Shown here: piece by piece, positions 9,515 to 32,390 of the stretch
Numbering within the stretch: position 1 is the first letter of the stretch
Layout: each line of letters begins with the position of its first letter
IMG/VR virus record: IMGVR_UViG_3300005613_000180
Location: 1-38,870 of that record
Direction: 5' to 3' (one strand)
Source: a virus
Length of the DNA stretch: 38,870 bases
Notes under the pieces: generated by a model
Seen by the model: the letters and a program-made list of their open reading frames with translations, nothing else
Told to the model about the DNA's origin: nothing
The model's database searches: none
Position numbers and translations under genes: made by a program

Positions 9515-10069
9515 TCAATAGAATCCGCCTTGGGCTAACCAGGTCACACCAGATCCACTCAAGCCACCAGAAACTGCGTTAGGGCCATTACCTAAGTAAC
9601 CAACACAGAGAATGTAACCTTTTTCGAGATATAAGCCTTCCATTTTGCCGAACTCGATAGGTCGAGCAAGGTTGGTGTCGCCCACACCGGGCACAGGGGC
9701 ATTAGTAGCAGGAAGTTCAATCCGTTGAATTAAGCCTTCAGTTCCTCCTGACAACCCAACCTCAAACTTTCCAAGCAGCATCGCAGCTGATGTAGAAGGA
9801 GCTGCCTGGTTAGGAGCATATACATAGATACCAAAAGCTGAAGTGTAGAGTCCACCATTATCGGGATAACCTTCGTTAGAGACCACGAAGATATCTTCGA
9901 CTAAAGCAGCGTCTTCGGAAGGGATGTCTCCCACACGGACGAGTTGGATGAGACTCCCAAAGTCAGGATTAGCTGGACTAACCGTGGGCGTGCCGTCGTT
10001 AAACCGAGCACCCCTTAAAAAGGGGCGATCGATCATTAATGGTTGCTTGTTGGTGCTGGTAGATGCCAC
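9515..10069 (-). CDS. Virion structural protein
   Basis: A 184-residue protein with beta-rich text (GLYTSAFGIYVYAPNQ, AMLLGKFEVGLSG) and no enzyme motif. It resembles small head/tail-surface proteins of cyanophages in composition and ends AQGGFY, the third member of the GG-x-Y C-termini. It lies 3 bases upstream of the large virion gene and 40 bases downstream of the previous one, so it is co-transcribed. The exact role is unknown. Confidence 0.6.
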   Translation of the reverse strand: MASTSTNKQPLMIDRPFLRGARFNDGTPTVSPANPDFGSLIQLVRVGDIPSEDAALVEDIFVVSNEGYPDNGGLYTSAFGIYVYAPNQAAPSTSAAMLLGKFEVGLSGGTEGLIQRIELPATNAPVPGVGDTNLARPIEFGKMEGLYLEKGYILCVGYLGNGPNAVSGGLSGSGVTWLAQGGFY

Positions 10070-10109
10070 TTAATAACTCCTGCTGGTTTCTAGTTTAATC
10101 TGTTACTAT

Positions 10110-10787
10110 TCAGATCCTAGGGATATTCAAACCTGAAAGATCAGGAAGATTTTTTATCCTGAAAGGATCATCAGTATTATAAATTCCTGGCGCTGGGTCA
10201 GCAGACACTCCAGGAACTCTAAACATAGGTTCAGCAGTTTCTTGCATAACTAGACCCGCCTCGGGTTGTTCTTCCTGCCTAGGAGCATCGTCGGTTGCAG
10301 TAACGTCTTGCTTCAAATTGAGAGCACTTTTAAGTTCGTCAATTTGCTTTTGCATATTTTCGATCAATGAGTCTCTTGACTCAGTAGCGCCACGGCTATC
10401 TGTGGCTTTGTAATAACCGCCTAATCGTCGTCCGGCAGGTCTAAAATTGCTACTCGGCCTTCCTTTAAATGCGTTAACAATGTCAGAGATACCTGCGGCT
10501 GCAGGTCCAATTGCTCTGATGTAATCCAGTACAGAGGGTTCTGGGGTAGCTATTTCAGTCGCTTGCCCAACGCTTTGTCCAGGTGCTTGACTTTGGAAGA
10601 TATCTCCCACGAGGCCACCTCCGAAACCGCCCCCAAAAGTTTCAGCGACACCTAAATTTGGTGCGTTAAAAGTGGAGGGGGTGTCGAAACTACCTTGAAA
10701 GTTGACCGTAGGAGATCCACCTAACCCTGAGTAATCACCAAAAGAACCAAAGTTAGTTCCATTTGGGGGTAAGAAACTGGATGTCAT
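10110..10787 (-). CDS. Glycine/proline-rich virion protein with coiled coil
   Basis: A 225-residue protein. Residues 1-60 are Gly/Ser/Phe-rich and disordered (FGGGFGGGLVGD). Residues 75-95 (VLDYIRAIGPAAAGISDIVNAF) form a hydrophobic helix. Around 140-160 a short coiled coil (ENMQKQIDELKSALNLK) appears. Proline-rich text follows. Such mixtures occur in internal or ejected virion proteins and connector accessories. Not recognised as a named family. Confidence 0.55.
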   Translation of the reverse strand: MTSSFLPPNGTNFGSFGDYSGLGGSPTVNFQGSFDTPSTFNAPNLGVAETFGGGFGGGLVGDIFQSQAPGQSVGQATEIATPEPSVLDYIRAIGPAAAGISDIVNAFKGRPSSNFRPAGRRLGGYYKATDSRGATESRDSLIENMQKQIDELKSALNLKQDVTATDDAPRQEEQPEAGLVMQETAEPMFRVPGVSADPAPGIYNTDDPFRIKNLPDLSGLNIPRI

Positions 10788-10795
10788 GGTTTAAC

Positions 10796-12508
10796 TCAGT
10801 AGAAAGGGTTGTACATGGGAGCGTTCTCTCGAACGAACTCCTCACGACGTTGAAGCTTGGGTTGAATTTGAGGACGAGTTGCATCCCTCATTTCAACAGC
10901 TTGTTGAAGAAGTCCGTTGACTGCCTGACCCAAGCGAGGATTTTCAAAAGCGGTTTGGCCCACAGCTTCAGAATTTCCGATTGCATTGGCCTCGTTGTCA
11001 GAACCCATAGGAGAAGTGACTTCTGTGGTGGTCACACTTTCGGGGTTTTGTTGGTTAGCAGTCGGGTCAGCCATCGAACGCTGGACTAACTGATAAGCCA
11101 GAGCGGGGTTGGCCTTAGCCCACTGGTCGAGCTGGACAGCATTCTCGCGGTCTTTAGTGATCTCACGCGCTTGACTAACGATCTCGTTTGCAACAGCAGG
11201 ATTAGAAACGTACCTTGCGCGATCTGCGTAATAGTCACCAATGTTCTTATAGGTGCTCGGATCGCGTGGTTCAAGTGCCCTTTCGACCATACCGCGAGCG
11301 GGGTCGGCTTGCTGCATTGCAGCCCGACGATTGCTGTCACGCTCATCACCACGGGTGGTGTAACTTCCAGGAGCGTTATTAAGAGGCGTCATCGGCACGT
11401 TCGCTGTCGATTGACTTTCCCCAAGAGGTGCGCCGTCGTTTTCAGTAAAAAGAACAGCAGGATCTTCGGACATTGAACCATCGAAATCCGACATCGAAGG
11501 AGATTTTGAAGGAGCTTCTTCGGTGTTGTTAAAAGTGCGTTCAAGACCTAACCCAGCCAATCCCAAGCCAACAGGGAGTGCTCCCGCTGCTACAAGCTTC
11601 TTTAAATCCATAAGGCGGGCACCTGTGTTTGCTGCTCTTGTGCTTGCACGGAGAGCATCATCAACGTCTATGACATTTACATCAACAGGGATGTTTGTGA
11701 ACTCAGAACCAGTGGACATCTCGCCACCTTGACCGCGACGTGCAAGTGCTCCACCTCGCGTTGATTGAGTCATTCCAGTAGGAGCGCGTCCTGCGGGAGG
11801 AACCATCCCGCCGCCTCTGGACACCATGTTTCTGGCATTCTCAAGAGACATGCCTTCATCCAACAAGCGAATAATATCTGTGCCGCCGGGCTCAACTAAA
11901 TCATTAACTAAGCCGCCACGGGGGATGCCGTAGTAATCTTCGGCGCGACCTGCCATCTCACGAATCGCAGAGAAAGTTCCAGGATCGCTCTTAGCTAAAC
12001 CGATAGCAGTTTCAGAGTAAGCAACCGGTGCGGTGTTTCCTCGCGGCATAGATGCCGGAAGTCCAAACTCAGGCTCTGGGGCACCTTGATCGAACAGACG
12101 ACCTTGACGAGGATCGGTAACGCCAGTGGTGGGTACAGCGCCACGGCTCATTTGAGGGCCAGACTCACTGACGATCTCAGTAGTACGAATGAAGGGACGA
12201 CGACCACCTGTAAAGTTCTGAGCTGCTCCTGTACGGGTAAGCATTTCGCCCTGCCTCATGGCAGGAGTTGAAGTAGGGATCGGGCGAGTAGGGGGAGTAA
12301 TTCTCCGCGTGGCGTCAGCAGCTTCTCTTAGTGCGGCTGCCCGAGCAGGATCTAAACCTTTTAAAAGTGGAGCAATGCCTTCTTCAATGCCCGCCCCACG
12401 GACGGCCATATCTAACACGGGAAGAAGATTATCGCCTTGTCGTGCTAATTGGCTTGTTCCTCGTTGAAAAGCTTCGCCACCTAGCTGCTTTAATAGAGAT
12501 GTAATCAC
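10796..12508 (-). CDS. Large putative internal/ejected virion protein
   Basis: A 570-residue, largely disordered, Ala/Pro/Arg-rich protein with one hydrophobic segment (VAAGALPVGLGLAGLGL, about residues 307-323), compatible with membrane insertion. The N-terminus is helical (ITSLLKQLGGEAFQRG). The C-terminus ends NAPMYNPFY. Similar composition occurs in phage internal core or ejection proteins. It starts at GTG 12508. The G+C is higher than in neighbouring accessory genes. It is the longest virion gene after the portal. No catalytic motif is seen. Confidence 0.6.
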   Translation of the reverse strand: MITSLLKQLGGEAFQRGTSQLARQGDNLLPVLDMAVRGAGIEEGIAPLLKGLDPARAAALREAADATRRITPPTRPIPTSTPAMRQGEMLTRTGAAQNFTGGRRPFIRTTEIVSESGPQMSRGAVPTTGVTDPRQGRLFDQGAPEPEFGLPASMPRGNTAPVAYSETAIGLAKSDPGTFSAIREMAGRAEDYYGIPRGGLVNDLVEPGGTDIIRLLDEGMSLENARNMVSRGGGMVPPAGRAPTGMTQSTRGGALARRGQGGEMSTGSEFTNIPVDVNVIDVDDALRASTRAANTGARLMDLKKLVAAGALPVGLGLAGLGLERTFNNTEEAPSKSPSMSDFDGSMSEDPAVLFTENDGAPLGESQSTANVPMTPLNNAPGSYTTRGDERDSNRRAAMQQADPARGMVERALEPRDPSTYKNIGDYYADRARYVSNPAVANEIVSQAREITKDRENAVQLDQWAKANPALAYQLVQRSMADPTANQQNPESVTTTEVTSPMGSDNEANAIGNSEAVGQTAFENPRLGQAVNGLLQQAVEMRDATRPQIQPKLQRREEFVRENAPMYNPFY

Positions 12509-14903: not shown

Positions 14904-16019
14904 TCAAGCGTCGAAGGAGTAACCAACGGTCACGAAGTCTGCATTAAGCAGTTCGAAACCAGCGTACAGGCTCCAGATCATCATGATGAAACGTGAGAAG
15001 TCATCATTGTTGTTCAGGAGAACCTGAGCGTTGTTGCCGCCGATGCCGACGCCAACAGACTGAGGACCGAAGAACATGCCGATCGCAGCGTTGTAATCCT
15101 GCGTATTACCGGCAATAGTTGCGTTCTGAGTCTGGGAAGGCATGTTGGTGGATTCGAAGAATCGCACACCCTCGAAGACAAAGCCCGTGGGCATAATCGG
15201 TTCGCCAGCCACGAAGGTAGCCTGACCGAAGCCCTGACCCATGTACAGAGCAGCGTTGGGCTGCATTGCTGACATGAGGGGATTGATTTGACCGTTACCG
15301 GGGTAGCGAGCCACCTCACGGAAGTCACTGTTCTGACGCAGGTGCATCAGGAAAGTGGGGTCACAAACGCAACGATAGAAGCCGTCCTGGTAGGTCGGGG
15401 TGTTGCGCTTACGCAGGGACTTGACCACGCGGAGGAGGTCGTCCTTAACGTCGAACTTAGCTTGCTCGGCGTTGGTGTAGGTGAGTGCGCCAGTGGCGAG
15501 ATCTCCGGGGAAGTAGTAACCACCCTGAGAATCAGAAGCTTGACCCTTGGAGACAGCTTTCAGGAGTTCGTTGATGAACACCCGATCGCGCCAACGACGA
15601 TAGTCATCCAGCAGAGTCAGTGAACCGATGCTCTGGTGGAAGGTGGTCAGGTTACCTGTATCAAGCAGCAAACGCTGTGCAGTGATCAGGGTTTCCCGAG
15701 CAATCTTGAAAGTAGAAGGCTGGGTGGGATCCGAAGGGTCTGCAGGACCGGTGTACTCGCGAAGGGTGACGAGCACCTTATCCTTCACGATGTTCCGGCT
15801 GTTTGCAGTACCAATGGTCTGCTCAGCGGTACGCTCACGTGACTCTTTAGAGCCAGGATTGCCGAAGAACCGGTAGCGATCGAGCTGTACAGTCTGACCC
15901 GGTTGCTTACTAAAATCGTGAACGATGACCGGCTCAGCAGCCATCTCTACGATGTAAGCGGGGTGAGGACGGTAGAGTTCCGCACCGAGAATCTTCGGGA
16001 AATCGTTGTCAATAAACAA
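14904..16019 (-). CDS. Major capsid protein
   Basis: A 371-residue protein, a typical size for an HK97-fold coat. The motif Y-Q-D-G-F-Y-R-C-V-C-D-P-T-F-L-M-H-L-R (about residue 213) followed by REVARYPG and later GFVFEGVRFFESTNMP matches the N4-gp56/P22-like group of coat proteins. It lies downstream of scaffold and portal and has its own noncoding leader. The start appears to be TTG at 16019, 7 bases after a GGAG ribosome-binding site; no ATG fits the same signal. Codon use is biased to G/C-ending codons, as for an abundant protein. Confidence 0.85.
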   Translation of the reverse strand: MFIDNDFPKILGAELYRPHPAYIVEMAAEPVIVHDFSKQPGQTVQLDRYRFFGNPGSKESRERTAEQTIGTANSRNIVKDKVLVTLREYTGPADPSDPTQPSTFKIARETLITAQRLLLDTGNLTTFHQSIGSLTLLDDYRRWRDRVFINELLKAVSKGQASDSQGGYYFPGDLATGALTYTNAEQAKFDVKDDLLRVVKSLRKRNTPTYQDGFYRCVCDPTFLMHLRQNSDFREVARYPGNGQINPLMSAMQPNAALYMGQGFGQATFVAGEPIMPTGFVFEGVRFFESTNMPSQTQNATIAGNTQDYNAAIGMFFGPQSVGVGIGGNNAQVLLNNNDDFSRFIMMIWSLYAGFELLNADFVTVGYSFDA

Positions 16020-17464: not shown

Positions 17465-17490
17465 AAAAAACCCCGGTGGCTAACCGGGGT
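17465..17490 (-). terminator. Intrinsic terminator after the scaffold gene
   Basis: Minus strand: ACCCCGGT-TAGCC-ACCGGGGT followed by five further T, a perfect eight-pair stem with a 5-base loop. It sits 25 bases after the stop of the 17515 gene and ends the portal-scaffold transcript before the separate capsid unit. Confidence 0.9.
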
Positions 17491-17514: not shown

Positions 17515-18417
17515 TCAGGCTCCTTCCATGAACAAGAGCTTGGAGCGCATTGCCTCAGGACCCATGTTTTGCAGGTAACGCCAAGCGTTTTCGGGATTAC
17601 GGTTCATCACTTCACCGAAAGTGTCCCATTGCTGCTGAGGAGCGGCTTGGACTTGCTGACCACCAACGTTTGCAGGGGGAGCAGGCATGTCGTAAGTCTG
17701 CTGATAAGCCGTAGGAGCCACGGTGGGCTCATCGATATCAACGGGATACACTTCAGTGAAGAAACGATCGGTGTAATCAGCCAAGTGGTCAGGGTTGGTG
17801 AGGATGGTTTGCATCGCACCAGCACGCTCGTTAAGGGCGTCATAACGAGTTGCCTGATCAATCAGCATGTCCTCAAGGGCACAGGAATACTGATTGAGAA
17901 TTCCAGGTGCTTCGAGTCCGAAGTGATTAACGACCTCTGCGCTTACCGCGCTGAGTTGGGGTGCCGTAGAAGCCTGAGAGGAACCCTGGGTCGGTGAGGC
18001 GCTGGTAGACGAGATCGGCGCTGCCTGCTGTTCCTGGTAAGCCCAGGGCTGGGCCTGTAAAGGCTGACTCTGTGGTTGAGTAACCGTCGCGGGAGCCTGG
18101 CTGGGCGACCACTGAGTCTGGCTGGGGGATTGAGATGGCAAAGTCTGAAGCACCCGCTCCAGGCTGCCCATCGCCGACTCCCACGGATTGGTCGGGGAGG
18201 ATTGCGACGTTAACGGGTTGAACTGGTTGCTGGTAGTAGGCTCCGTAATTGGAGCTACCTGCTGAGGCTGTTGGACTGTAGGTGCCGAAGCTACCGCCGG
18301 GGTAGCCCCCTGTGCTACCCACTGCGGGTAGGCGGTTGAGCCCTGGTCGTTGGTTACCGCCGGGGCTGCCGCCGGGGAGACCGGGCTCGGGGTCGAAGCT
18401 TGGATCTGCTGGCTCAT
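17515..18417 (-). CDS. Probable scaffolding protein, 5' half overprinted on portal gene
   Basis: A 300-residue protein between portal and capsid genes, the usual place for a scaffold. Residues 1-160 are Pro/Gln/Ser/Thr-rich and disordered. Residues 165-235 are helical (VVNHFGLEAPGILNQYSCALEDMLIDQATRYDAL, in parts), and the C-terminus (NPENAWRYLQNMGPEAMRSKLLF) forms a short helical cap like scaffold capsid-binding tails. Its first 163 codons lie inside the portal gene, read +1 relative to it. A terminator follows at once. Start MSQQIQAS is an ATG; an internal start after the overlap is possible but none stands out. Confidence 0.65.
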   Translation of the reverse strand: MSQQIQASTPSPVSPAAAPAVTNDQGSTAYPQWVAQGATPAVASAPTVQQPQQVAPITEPTTSNQFNPLTSQSSPTNPWESAMGSLERVLQTLPSQSPSQTQWSPSQAPATVTQPQSQPLQAQPWAYQEQQAAPISSTSASPTQGSSQASTAPQLSAVSAEVVNHFGLEAPGILNQYSCALEDMLIDQATRYDALNERAGAMQTILTNPDHLADYTDRFFTEVYPVDIDEPTVAPTAYQQTYDMPAPPANVGGQQVQAAPQQQWDTFGEVMNRNPENAWRYLQNMGPEAMRSKLLFMEGA

Positions 18418-20143
18418 AGCTACCCGAGTAGGTTAATTCTTCCGCGAGATGATCGAACGTCCTGTACAGGAGCGGAGTGATATTCAGTCTAGGATCAGCC
18501 GCTAATGGTTGATCAGGCGCAAGAGGATGCGGAGACTGCAACATCTGGCTTAATAATACCAGAAATTGCTGCATTGCTGCTTGGGTTTGTTGAACCATTC
18601 GGAAAGGAAAACCCTGCAACATTTCCGCCCTTTCGCTGTCAGTTTTCTCAGGAAATAAGAACTTCAGTGCTTCAACACTATCCACACCTAGTTCTTGTAA
18701 ATTCCTGACGACGATTGACTTTTGGTTTATATCGTATGCAGTATCTTCATACACATCGCCTTGGAAGCGATAAGAGACATCACGGTCGCCGTCCTCAGGT
18801 AAACCCACGACACCGGGCGGTACTTTGTTTTCTGCAAGGGCTTTCCGCATTGCAGCATCCACTTTCTGCTCAAAGCGGATGATTGCTTTTTGATACTTTT
18901 CAAGAGATTCAGGTTCTGCATCCTTAGGTGGGTTGGGTTCTTTCATACCTGAAGCGGCAATAAAAGATTCTCTAAAGATCTGCTCTTGATGATAAATAAT
19001 CATCTCCAACAAACGGCAAAAACCGTAAGTTAAAAACGACTTATTTTTCCTTAGAGCAGTCGCTTGTGCTCGACCCATGAGACCTTTGATCTCAGTCGCC
19101 GTTGCACCTGCTGAGATAGAGATTTCATCAACACCGCCAAGCGCAGTGCGGATTTCTTCCCGCAAAAGAAGCGCATAGCGATTCATATCGCCACTAACTG
19201 GATCAGGGGTCATGTAACCCACACGATCTGTGGGCTCCACGTTCGCAATAATACGAGGGACACGTAGTCCTCCTCCCATTGCAGCGCCAAAAGGCTCACT
19301 AACCCTTGTTGAAGGGGTATCGGGACCTGAAAAACCGCTCTGACTGCTAATTGTGGGCCTAAATCCACTTTGAGCGTCGTTGGCTTCTACAAGATCACTG
19401 CGTGGACGCGAACTAATCAGCGTTGGGTTGCCGAAAAACTCGATATTTTTAGCAACATTGCGAATAATTTGATCATGAAGAACAATTTGCTCCATGAACG
19501 GGTCAAATTCACCCTCTCCCTCAGTTCCACTAGCGTTTGGCTTGTTTAAAACCTCAACAGCTGGAACAAAACCGAGTGTATTAGGTCTTGTCTTAGCAGG
19601 ACTAAGAACGCTTCCTGGTTCAAGCTCAAAACTAAGCTCAGTATCGGCCTCTACTTCGTTGATCTCGTCAGCTGTGATCGCCAGACGCACATATCTTTTA
19701 TTTTGACCATAGGTATCGGAAGGTAATCCGAGATTATTGTTCTTAACCTTGTAGCTATAGAGAATAACGACTTCCTCAACGTCGCCATTTAAGTCGTGAT
19801 AAACACGATATTGGTTTTTGTTGAAAAAATAGATTTGATACTTAAGTTTTTTATCTGGTCGAAAGTAAAAAAGACCACAACCGTCGATTAAAAAGTTCCG
19901 AATAATCGCCGGGAAGCGAATATCTAGCTTATTAAGAGTGATGAGGTTGTTAATAAACCTATTTCTTCCTTTGTAAGTGTCCTGATCGCAGTAAAAAGTT
20001 AGACCCTTTTTGATCATCAAAAGGGTCATTTGTTGGATGTGGCTAAGCACAACCATTGTGGCGGATTGATTCGATCGATCCTGAGTCCTAGCGGCCTCAA
20101 GAACCTCTTCGTACCTATTCCTTGTTTCGATTTGAGACGACAT
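17927..20143 (-). CDS. Portal protein with long disordered tail
   Basis: A 738-residue protein. Residues 1-560 read as a phage portal: a helical N-terminus (TLLMIKKGLTFYCDQD), FLIDGCGLFYFRPD, a central ISAGATATEIKGLMGRAQAT segment and long C-terminal helices (RLLEMIIYHQEQIFRES). It forms the dodecameric DNA channel of the head and docks terminase. After about residue 576 the text becomes Gly/Pro/Ser/Gln-rich and ends TQRGKRRGR. This 163-residue tail shares its DNA with the scaffold N-terminus in another frame. Upstream is a 50-residue charged protein. Confidence 0.9.
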   Translation of the reverse strand: MSSQIETRNRYEEVLEAARTQDRSNQSATMVVLSHIQQMTLLMIKKGLTFYCDQDTYKGRNRFINNLITLNKLDIRFPAIIRNFLIDGCGLFYFRPDKKLKYQIYFFNKNQYRVYHDLNGDVEEVVILYSYKVKNNNLGLPSDTYGQNKRYVRLAITADEINEVEADTELSFELEPGSVLSPAKTRPNTLGFVPAVEVLNKPNASGTEGEGEFDPFMEQIVLHDQIIRNVAKNIEFFGNPTLISSRPRSDLVEANDAQSGFRPTISSQSGFSGPDTPSTRVSEPFGAAMGGGLRVPRIIANVEPTDRVGYMTPDPVSGDMNRYALLLREEIRTALGGVDEISISAGATATEIKGLMGRAQATALRKNKSFLTYGFCRLLEMIIYHQEQIFRESFIAASGMKEPNPPKDAEPESLEKYQKAIIRFEQKVDAAMRKALAENKVPPGVVGLPEDGDRDVSYRFQGDVYEDTAYDINQKSIVVRNLQELGVDSVEALKFLFPEKTDSERAEMLQGFPFRMVQQTQAAMQQFLVLLSQMLQSPHPLAPDQPLAADPRLNITPLLYRTFDHLAEELTYSGSYEPADPSFDPEPGLPGGSPGGNQRPGLNRLPAVGSTGGYPGGSFGTYSPTASAGSSNYGAYYQQPVQPVNVAILPDQSVGVGDGQPGAGASDFAISIPQPDSVVAQPGSRDGYSTTESAFTGPALGLPGTAGSADLVYQRLTDPGFLSGFYGTPTQRGKRRGR

Positions 20144-20154
20144 TAAAAGTCACT

Positions 20155-20307
20155 TCAGTCTTTTTTACGCATTTCCTTGGCTTTACGAGCTTTGTCACGA
20201 GCAGACTTGCGCTTGTCGTTTTTAAGCTCTTCGCCGCTGGGCGCTTTGTTTTCTTCCCGATCTTTTTTGAATTTCTCTAAAAGCTCGGCGGGCATCTTAT
20301 CAGCCAT
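20155..20307 (-). CDS. Small highly charged helical protein
   Basis: A 50-residue protein (MADKMPAELLEKFKKD..., ending EMRKKD) that fills the gap between portal and glycosyltransferase genes. Almost every residue is charged, with a repeated K/R-A-R-K-A-K pattern, so it is likely a single long helix binding nucleic acid or an acidic partner. Its ATG overlaps the stop of the upstream gene by 8 bases, which supports it. Cyanophages often carry such a gene near the portal, but I do not know its role. Confidence 0.65.
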   Translation of the reverse strand: MADKMPAELLEKFKKDREENKAPSGEELKNDKRKSARDKARKAKEMRKKD

Positions 20308-21112
20308 CGGGTAACAAATACTTTTTGACTCTCTCTATTTTAAGCACCCCTTCGGGTAAATCCTCTACCGGATATGAAGTTAAAAGATGATCTTCTCTGC
20401 CGAGCATGTCAGTTTTACCTTCCTCAGGCACAAAGTCCTCACAGAGTTTTTGTACTTCCGGTCGATCCCAGATGTAATACTCGGCAATCGAACGAAGTTT
20501 AGTCTTGCGCTTGTCGGCATCACCCATCCAGGAGAAGTGCCATCCTGCATTGCGAACGCCAACGTAGTAATTATTGGTACTCGCTCTCATCGAAGAAAGA
20601 GTTCCATGCTCTTTAAGTTTTTCCACCGTGGACGCCACGCCGCAACGCCAGTCGAAAAGCTCTCCCTCAGGTGAAACAAGCTGACGATCTGCACGCCCAT
20701 AGTGCATAGACATACTCAACCTGACGATTTTGTCTTCTTCCATATCGATAGAAGTTTTGATAGCTTCAAGCGCAGCTGGGTTAGTAAGCTCATCACAATC
20801 AGAGCAGATAAAATAACAATCGTCACCGAGCATATGCAAACCAACGCCCAGAGCATCTCGCTGACCTCGTTCACGAACCCAAGGGTCAGGTGCTTCTTCA
20901 TAGGAAGGCAATTCAACGTGTAAGACCTGAATTTTATCTTCGGGAAGTCCTAGCTCTCTGAGGGTGTCCACGCAGGTGAAGGGCTTTGGTTCCCCTCTGT
21001 GCGTCATATTCGCATCAGCAATTAGAAAACCATCTACATGGTCCTCTAGAGTACGAACACGCAGTTCAAGCAACTCCTTCTCGTTGAAGTAAGGAAAGCT
21101 GTCAATAATCAC
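20300..21112 (-). CDS. GT17-family glycosyltransferase
   Basis: A 270-residue protein matching family 17: MIIDSFPYFNEKELLELRV, VDGFLIADANMTHRGEPKP, then C-S-D105-C-D107-E108-L-T-N-P as the metal-binding D-x-D-E, and RLSMSMHYGR and GWHFSWMGD later. Members transfer GlcNAc to beta-linked mannose in eukaryotes; in phages they probably modify a phage structural glycan or host surface sugar. It is embedded between packaging genes, co-transcribed with the portal. Acceptor and donor cannot be told from sequence. Confidence 0.8.
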   Translation of the reverse strand: MIIDSFPYFNEKELLELRVRTLEDHVDGFLIADANMTHRGEPKPFTCVDTLRELGLPEDKIQVLHVELPSYEEAPDPWVRERGQRDALGVGLHMLGDDCYFICSDCDELTNPAALEAIKTSIDMEEDKIVRLSMSMHYGRADRQLVSPEGELFDWRCGVASTVEKLKEHGTLSSMRASTNNYYVGVRNAGWHFSWMGDADKRKTKLRSIAEYYIWDRPEVQKLCEDFVPEEGKTDMLGREDHLLTSYPVEDLPEGVLKIERVKKYLLPDG

Positions 21113-21748: not shown

Positions 21749-21964
21749 TCATTCTACATCTGTCTCTTCGATCAGGAGATGTAGATACCACGCTGCTTTC
21801 TTTAGAGACTCAACCCCTCCTTTGTGATTACTCCTCCAGACGTATTTCAGCACATTTCCTTTGCAGAAGCCCTGAAACTCTTCATTAGTTAGTGCAGCAC
21901 GAATACCTTCGATCGTCTCTATGCCGCCTTGGTTGTAGTGGCTGGGGTGGTTTACGTTGTTCAT
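21749..21964 (-). CDS. DUF3310 family protein
   Basis: A 71-residue protein matching DUF3310 almost end to end: VNHPSHYNQGGIETIEGI, FQGFCKGNVLKYVWR, then GGVESLKKAAWYLHLLIEE. The family is widespread in phages, including T7-like ones; some members are annotated as nucleotide-kinase-like fragments, but the function is not settled. It overlaps the end of the upstream glycosyltransferase by 4 bases. Confidence 0.85.
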   Translation of the reverse strand: MNNVNHPSHYNQGGIETIEGIRAALTNEEFQGFCKGNVLKYVWRSNHKGGVESLKKAAWYLHLLIEETDVE

Positions 21965-22833
21965 ACGAACATATTTTCCGTGGTTATACAGTCTGAGGCT
22001 TTCACAAGAGGATCGCTATATTTTGTATCCAAATGTTGAATCAAACCCTCATTCGCAATGACAACCTTACCTTCTCTCTTAACCAACGGAACCACACGGC
22101 GATGATCTTGCCCGTCTTTCAAGTTTTCAAACGCAAGGCCCATAGAGGATCTGTCAGCAACAGGCCAGTTTCTGTGCCCTGTAAGCATGTGACTGATATT
22201 TATGTGCGCACTAGGTGAAGCTATGTACTCAGCAGCTTGATCTTGATCGAGAATCATCATGCCTGAGTAAGGGTTACCCAACAGAATAAAACCAATAAAA
22301 TTATCGTCTTCTGGGGTTAGATATACAGACGCTTTATGAGGTATATCATGCCATACGTCTTCTGTAAGCTCTGTGAGGTTATATCTTTTATAGTTGTCAA
22401 ATGGAATTTTTAAATCTCCTTGCCGCTCAAACCGACAAAAGGACGGTTCAAGATTTAATTTTTTAAGTTTATCCTTATATCTAAACCAGTAATCAAAGTG
22501 TTTCCTAGTGAAAAGCATATCGTTTTCACTGTAAATGTAGTAATCGTATGCTTCTTGTACGACTGAAAGTCTTAGTAAGTCTTTATGAGCCCAGCAAAGA
22601 TAATAATCTTTAAACTCTGGTCCAGCAATTTGGATCTCAACTTTTAAACCTTCAAAGAGGTTGGCTTCCAAAAGCTCTTCTAAGTCGTACACATCGTCCC
22701 TGTGGTCGTGATCAACATAAAGAACTACAAATTTGTCACCAGGAAGACCTGCGTACTCCTTTAAACACCTCATAAGAGGATCAAAACGAGCAAGAGGGTT
22801 GTGTGCAGTGACAAGAATAAGTGCCTTAGTCAT
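21961..22833 (-). CDS. GT-A-type glycosyltransferase
   Basis: A 290-residue protein. The N-terminus MTKALILVTAHN begins a nucleotide-binding Rossmann-like fold; YYIYSENDMLFTRKHF (about residues 98-113) supplies the acidic E-N-D metal motif of GT-A enzymes. Later FIGFILLGNPYSGMMIL and HINISHMLTGHRNWP are typical of bacterial glycan transferases. It sits between TerL and DUF3310 with 1- and 4-base overlaps. Probably soluble; the substrate is unknown. Confidence 0.65.
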   Translation of the reverse strand: MTKALILVTAHNPLARFDPLMRCLKEYAGLPGDKFVVLYVDHDHRDDVYDLEELLEANLFEGLKVEIQIAGPEFKDYYLCWAHKDLLRLSVVQEAYDYYIYSENDMLFTRKHFDYWFRYKDKLKKLNLEPSFCRFERQGDLKIPFDNYKRYNLTELTEDVWHDIPHKASVYLTPEDDNFIGFILLGNPYSGMMILDQDQAAEYIASPSAHINISHMLTGHRNWPVADRSSMGLAFENLKDGQDHRRVVPLVKREGKVVIANEGLIQHLDTKYSDPLVKASDCITTENMFV

Positions 22834-32301: not shown

Positions 32302-32390
32302 TGGTGCCTGAGGAGGGACTTGAACCCTCACGACCTTTGCGGGTCAACGGATTTTAAGTCCGGCGCGTCTACCGATTCCGCCACTCAGGC
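32302..32390 (-). tRNA. tRNA-Leu (UAA)
   Basis: Minus strand: acceptor GCCTGAG pairs with CTCAGGC, followed by discriminator A and an encoded CCA. The anticodon loop CTTAAAA gives UAA, which reads UUA. A long variable arm (class II, as expected for Leu) and GGTTCAA T-loop are present. The outer anticodon-stem pair is a C-U mismatch. A TATTCT box lies about 23 bases upstream. Confidence 0.92.

Follow-up and report, generated by a model that had tools for sequence, protein, structure and literature searches.

An out-of-frame overlap of portal and probable scaffold genes conserved in phages related to Synechococcus phage S-EIV1

This locus raises the question of whether a virus reads the same 491 bases both as the end of its portal gene and as the beginning of a second head-assembly gene and, if so, how the second product is made from inside the first gene. 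Overlapping genes are a known kind of arrangement, and annotators usually discount those that are long and out of frame. The part of PMC3887535 that deals with overlap length states that overlaps above 59 bp were omitted, because many misannotations are possible there.

The two genes and the DNA they share

The stretch of DNA that was analysed (the window) is a virus record of 38,870 bases, and its nearest isolate is Synechococcus phage S-EIV1. The features at and around the overlap are as follows.

17927..20143, (-): portal gene, 738 aa; core of about residues 1-576, tail 577-738 disordered and Gly/Pro/Ser-rich, with a basic C-terminus
17515..18417, (-): probable scaffolding protein gene, 300 aa; head 1-163 disordered and Ser/Gln/Pro/Ala-rich, C-terminal part 157-297 helical
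17927..18417, (-): overlap of 491 nt in two frames, the scaffold frame being +1 of the portal frame
14904..16019, (-): major capsid protein gene, given as context (phrog_1357, 1.5e-22)
17470..17490, (-): terminator-like hairpin with a T-run, directly past the scaffold stop

Both open reading frames are present on the same strand, as the first-pass annotation had described, and the second is in the +1 frame. The scaffold ATG straddles the portal codons for Tyr576 and Glu577 (T-ATG-AG), and the shared bases encode the last 162 portal residues and the first 163 scaffold residues. Both products of the shared DNA are rich in Pro, Ser and Gly or in Gln and are mostly predicted to be coil, also in line with that description.

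For the window sequence alone, chance is not a negligible explanation of the open frame, which is only moderately unlikely. The +1 frame was open in 20 of 2000 draws when synonymous codons were redrawn by core codon usage, and in 200 of 2000 when its own codons were shuffled. The arrangement was therefore judged in a comparison set of 162 records, which consists of the window, S-EIV1 and 160 IMG/VR loci (80 in the lineage of the window and 80 in that of S-EIV1). Portals of the two lineages are on average 44% identical. The scaffold frame has no stop codon across the overlap in any of the 161 usable sequences (81 from the window lineage, 80 from the S-EIV1 lineage), a count that excludes L107, whose contig stops within the overlap. 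The +1 frame of the portal core contains 5.60 stops per 100 codons in the window lineage and 3.89 in the S-EIV1 lineage. Because the frame is open in every usable relative and the same frame of the core is rich in stops, the overlap is real rather than fortuitous. The portal frame is also open through the tail in relatives, and the proposed check for two open frames thus turned out positive.

Overlap lengths range from 488 to 515 nt among window-lineage sequences and from 554 to 641 nt among those of the S-EIV1 lineage, S-EIV1 itself having 554 nt. The same arrangement is found in L163, a genome-collection contig of the S-EIV1 lineage. These comparisons indicate that the overlap is genuine, out of frame and old, predating the split of the two lineages. 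Counts of overlap length modulo 3 were discarded as evidence, being trivial by construction.

An assembly or sequencing frameshift had been named as an event that could undo the overlap. Indels that break the frame are indeed scattered through the portal region of two window-lineage loci, L252 and L267, but the arrangement is repeated in 161 sequences, including an isolate genome, and also in the genome-collection contig. The comparison rules out such an artefact, to which we assign a negligible probability.

The identity of the 738-aa product as a portal protein is well supported, as had been proposed. It matches phrog_20475 (virion structural protein, 5.6e-166) and phrog_64 (portal, 4.4e-6); the S-EIV1 portal reaches only 0.082 against phrog_64. 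The AlphaFold model is of low confidence (mean pLDDT 44.5), and its tail is predicted coil. When this low-confidence model was compared with the PDB by using Foldseek, ranks 1-33 were all portal or portal-containing entries. The matches listed by VIA-align for the same low-confidence model are also portal or portal-containing entries, with a best Z of 8.2, where a Z near 8 is not strong by itself. PDB sequence profiles gave no match for portal or scaffold.

The description of the 300-aa product as a scaffold stands with regard to position and predicted structure, but not with regard to family. The product is probably a scaffold, as judged by the position of its gene and by its predicted disorder and helices. 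In the window, the gene is located between the portal and major capsid genes, and the gene order in L163 is portal, scaffold candidate, one further gene, major capsid. The scaffold model (mean pLDDT 45.4) is coil to residue 156, except for a helix at 78-91, and helical after that; the last three helices (260-297) have a pLDDT of about 79, and the remainder is low. Family profiles (PHROGs and Pfam) gave no match, and neither did profile comparison with T7 gp9 or Syn5 gp38, although a profile non-match does not exclude scaffold homology. A terminator-like site lies at most 80 nt past the scaffold stop in 49 of 80 window-lineage loci and in 0 of 71 S-EIV1-lineage loci.

Selection on the portal and scaffold frames

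Selection was assessed in disjoint closest pairs of sequences, and each change was classed by its effect in the portal frame and then in the scaffold frame. Substitution rates are expressed relative to the portal-core synonymous rate, and the figures are bootstrap means. Before the test, L001 (a copy of the window itself) was removed along with loci that were redundant or had an incomplete scaffold, leaving 52 of 80 sequences in the window lineage and 48 of 71 in the S-EIV1 lineage.

In 16 pairs of the window lineage, the rates are 0.92 (syn/syn), 0.34 (syn/non), 0.23 (non/syn) and 0.05 (non/non). The corresponding rates in 14 pairs of the S-EIV1 lineage are 0.79, 0.17, 0.30 and 0.10. As a control, a pseudo +1 frame applied to the portal core gave syn/non rates of 1.02 (window lineage) and 1.03 (S-EIV1 lineage), and a pseudo-portal frame applied to scaffold-only DNA gave non/syn rates of 1.20 and 0.75, respectively. 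Constraint on two frames at once is specific to the overlap, because the pseudo-frame controls do not have it. The near-neutral rate of the doubly silent class, which is small (6.5 observed changes in the window lineage and 13.5 in the S-EIV1 lineage), argues against a general constraint at the nucleotide level. Diversity by base position agrees with the pair-based test. A check of synonymous sites in each frame had been suggested, and the reduced syn/non and non/syn classes in both lineages bear out the dual coding that it was meant to probe. These substitution patterns indicate that the portal and scaffold frames in the overlap are both under purifying selection, in two lineages.

The GenBank annotation of S-EIV1 presents another reading, in which the downstream gene starts past the portal stop (AHV82225.1) and the open frame upstream of it is fortuitous. 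A Met is conserved in the scaffold frame directly past the portal stop (LEDML / LEGML), and between 1 and 10% of redraws leave the window frame open by chance. However, changes that are silent in the portal and nonsilent in the scaffold occur at 0.34 and 0.17 of the core rate while the doubly silent class is near neutral, the scaffold frame is open in 161 of 161 sequences, and the S-EIV1 lineage has a conserved ATG with a Shine-Dalgarno sequence at the upstream start. A late start as the only start is very unlikely on this evidence. The conserved Met past the portal stop might give rise to a possible shorter second product.

Similarly, the portal could effectively stop near residue 576, with a tail frame that is not functional. 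The portals at Foldseek ranks 1-33 are shorter (392-564 residues), and the tail is predicted coil. Against this, changes that alter the portal and are silent in the scaffold occur at 0.23 and 0.30, compared with 1.20 and 0.75 in the scaffold-only control, and relatives keep the tail frame open. We consider a short portal even slightly less probable than the late scaffold start.

Two pairs in the window lineage, L043/L047 and L044/L063, have portal cores 0.2% apart and scaffold parts 13-14% apart, with a shift in divergence near -110 or within the overlap. These pairs look chimeric or recombinant, through either recombination or assembly switching. Because they depress the pooled core baseline, the reported constraint is conservative.

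Which of the two frames is the younger was also considered. Codon usage and GC content by position do not discriminate between an older and a younger frame, and protein divergence between the lineages is similar in the portal and scaffold frames. With regard to an outgroup without the overlap, phage records gave only S-EIV1 for the portal, scaffold and full-length capsid proteins (besides weak partial matches), and genome-collection contigs gave one locus, L163, which belongs to the S-EIV1 lineage. A simulation in PMC3887535 found 3' extension of an upstream gene to be twice as frequent as 5' extension of a downstream gene. The simulation and the extra length of the portal would favour a younger portal tail.

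The scaffold start and the conserved DNA upstream of it

Conserved sequence is found at the scaffold start and also upstream of it, in the part of the portal gene that encodes only portal. The latter constraint on synonymous sites is a new observation.

18401..18427, (-): scaffold start region, near-invariant TCGGGTAGCTATGAGCCAGCAGATCCA, with the ATG at 18417-18415
18418..18562, (-): putative cis-regulatory leader in portal-only coding sequence, with synonymous-site constraint; begins with CTGGTATTATTA (18562-18551)
18537..18573, (-): possible hairpin at the leader's upstream edge; its loop, UAUUAUUAAG, is AU-rich

At the window-lineage start, all 52 non-redundant sequences share GGT AGC TAT unchanged, and no clear Shine-Dalgarno sequence was seen there. 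In the S-EIV1 lineage, the ATG is preceded by a strong Shine-Dalgarno sequence (AAAGGAG), and the start block TACAAAAGGAGATGAGTTATGCAGGAC is found in 80 of 81 records. By portal alignment, the ATG of the S-EIV1 lineage is located 12 nt upstream of that of the window lineage.

The conserved ATG is only 3 nt past a stop codon in the scaffold frame, which bears on the possibility that ribosomes shift from the portal frame and produce a portal-scaffold fusion. Capsid genes of other phages use frameshifting, for example T7 gene 10, which is annotated as a two-piece CDS, and the scaffold frame lies on the same strand, +1 of the portal. In contrast, an ATG that follows this stop so closely, with the strong Shine-Dalgarno sequence of the S-EIV1 lineage, points to independent initiation, and frameshifting appears highly improbable.

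The constrained stretch before the scaffold ATG spans about 145 nt in the window lineage and about 260 nt in the S-EIV1 lineage. Among the last 110 portal-core codons, near-invariant degenerate codons number 12/106 in the window lineage versus 0/454 earlier, and 22/104 in the S-EIV1 lineage versus 2/457 earlier. The onset of constraint is sharp in both, at CTG GTA TTA TTA, codon -48 relative to the one containing the start (window lineage), and at TTA GGT GTT GAT AGC ATT, codon -87 (S-EIV1 lineage). Other window-lineage genes have no comparable 3'-end enrichment: the counts are 11/105 versus 19/254 for the major capsid gene, 0/108 versus 2/380 for TerL and 0/91 versus 0/165 for a 270-aa gene. 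The gene at 20300-21112 shows a weak 3'-end effect (4/99 versus 1/159). An additional ORF was rejected as the source of the constraint, the last 300 nt having stops in every other frame in 52 of 52 window-lineage sequences; in the S-EIV1 lineage, one antisense frame of the last 300 nt is stop-free in 13 of 48.

The leader motif is present in 50 of 51 loci and nowhere else within those loci. A search for the leader motif identified 105 loci, many of which are contigs of the window-lineage set and 32 of which lack room downstream. Of the other 73, 71 have an ATG at +145 and an overlap of at least 400 nt. The exceptions are L204, in which the motif is a chance match in an unrelated protein, and L252, with its frame-breaking indels. 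The indels in L252 and L267 are probably sequencing errors. In 23 of the 105 loci, the sequence runs out no more than about 300 nt from the motif, as though assembly tended to break at the conserved block.

The upstream constraint might reflect recombination or gene conversion that swept one segment, rather than a cis element. A few pairs have an abrupt change in divergence at -110 to -230 from the start or within the overlap, and loci often end near the block (23/105), as would fit a sweep. However, invariant codons alternate with codons whose synonymous diversity is near normal, and the constrained length differs between the two lineages. A sweep is thus an unlikely explanation, though not so improbable as frameshifting. 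A cis element is preferred, and we infer from these patterns that the upstream sequence comprises the scaffold's own expression signals inside the portal gene.

The form of the element was sought in RNA structure and promoter motifs. All 11 pairs of the hairpin at the leader edge form in 45 of 52 sequences, and the predicted fold of the 141-nt leader is more stable than those of shuffled sequences (z = -2.40). No compensatory changes were found for the hairpin stem, and leader folds are supported by one pair at most. The search of Rfam gave only a tRNA. The leader block contains TGGTATTAT, which we take to resemble an extended -10 box. A promoter is unproven, because the promoter scan called no sigma-70-type promoter at the leader and, in the loci tested, the motif has no second occurrence. 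Other genes gave no sign of a shared late promoter in front of them.

Proposed expression of the scaffold gene and comparison with known systems

We consider it likely that the locus is explained as a whole by an old out-of-frame overlap, internal initiation at the conserved ATG and scaffold signals embedded upstream. Translation of the portal frame would yield the 738-residue portal, including a disordered tail of 162 residues at its C-terminus. A second set of ribosomes would begin at the conserved ATG (18417), inside the portal message, and yield the probable scaffold, for whose first 163 residues the shared bases serve as +1-frame codons. The message used there, either a transcript or a processed one, would have its signals within the portal gene, and the upstream element could be a promoter, leader or processing element of the scaffold.

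One head contains 12 portal subunits and many scaffold copies, so the scaffold would need signals of its own. The overlap had been proposed to tie the synthesis of portal and scaffold. This is doubtful: the scaffold has its own conserved start region and a constrained element upstream, and its ATG precedes the portal stop by about 490 nt, which means that termination-reinitiation at that stop cannot serve it, so that tied synthesis is not favoured. The arrangement suggests instead that scaffold dosage is controlled separately from that of the portal. More tentatively, the 3' part of the portal gene may combine a portal-encoding function, a built-in scaffold expression element (promoter, leader or RNA switch) and about 490-640 nt of dual coding, so that scaffold dosage would be set from inside the portal gene. 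The portal tail and the scaffold head, which share their bases, might be in contact during head assembly and have evolved jointly.

The gene order is like that of several phages. In T7, the scaffold gene (gene 9) is located between portal (gene 8) and major capsid genes and has its own annotated promoter, phi9, directly upstream, which makes an embedded promoter attractive here. However, the T7 portal and scaffold genes are 99 nt apart, without overlap, and scaffold homology is undetectable. The cyanopodovirus Syn5 has the same order of portal (gp37) and head assembly (gp38) genes, but with a 170-nt gap and no detected homology to gp38. P22 also has the portal (gene 1) before the scaffold (gene 8), with a 13-nt gap and no overlap. 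In lambda C/Nu3, a scaffold start is nested inside the upstream head gene in the same frame, whereas the scaffold in the window is in the +1 frame of the portal. A literature search of titles and abstract openings gave no case of portal and scaffold genes with a conserved out-of-frame overlap of this length (about 490-640 nt).

S-EIV1 itself has the overlap (554 nt), which is absent from its GenBank annotation; it differs from the window in its strong Shine-Dalgarno sequence, a start 12 nt further upstream and a longer leader. In that annotation, the scaffold begins only past the portal stop, and the major capsid protein is not given as one CDS: the region matching the window capsid protein at 68% covers one antisense CDS and a portion of a second CDS.

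L002:8903-9304 and 9899-11026, equal to KJ410740 59863-60264 and 60859-61986: S-EIV1 scaffold and capsid annotation regions

The finding corrects the annotation of S-EIV1, the only isolate genome found. Throughout a widespread group of cyanophages, two genes probably involved in head assembly overlap in this way, and both frames are under selection. The overlap provides a natural test of how a phage sets its portal-to-scaffold ratio when the genes share DNA. A passage of PMC5332604 gives the group with S-EIV1 as 3.3% of marine cyanophage content.

Other features of the window were noted. Two genes in the interval between terminase and portal, at 20300-21112 and 21961-22833 (-), encode putative glycosyltransferase-type proteins of 270 and 290 aa, by sequence impression. 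A tRNA gene is located at 32305-32390 (-) (Rfam tRNA, 60 bits).
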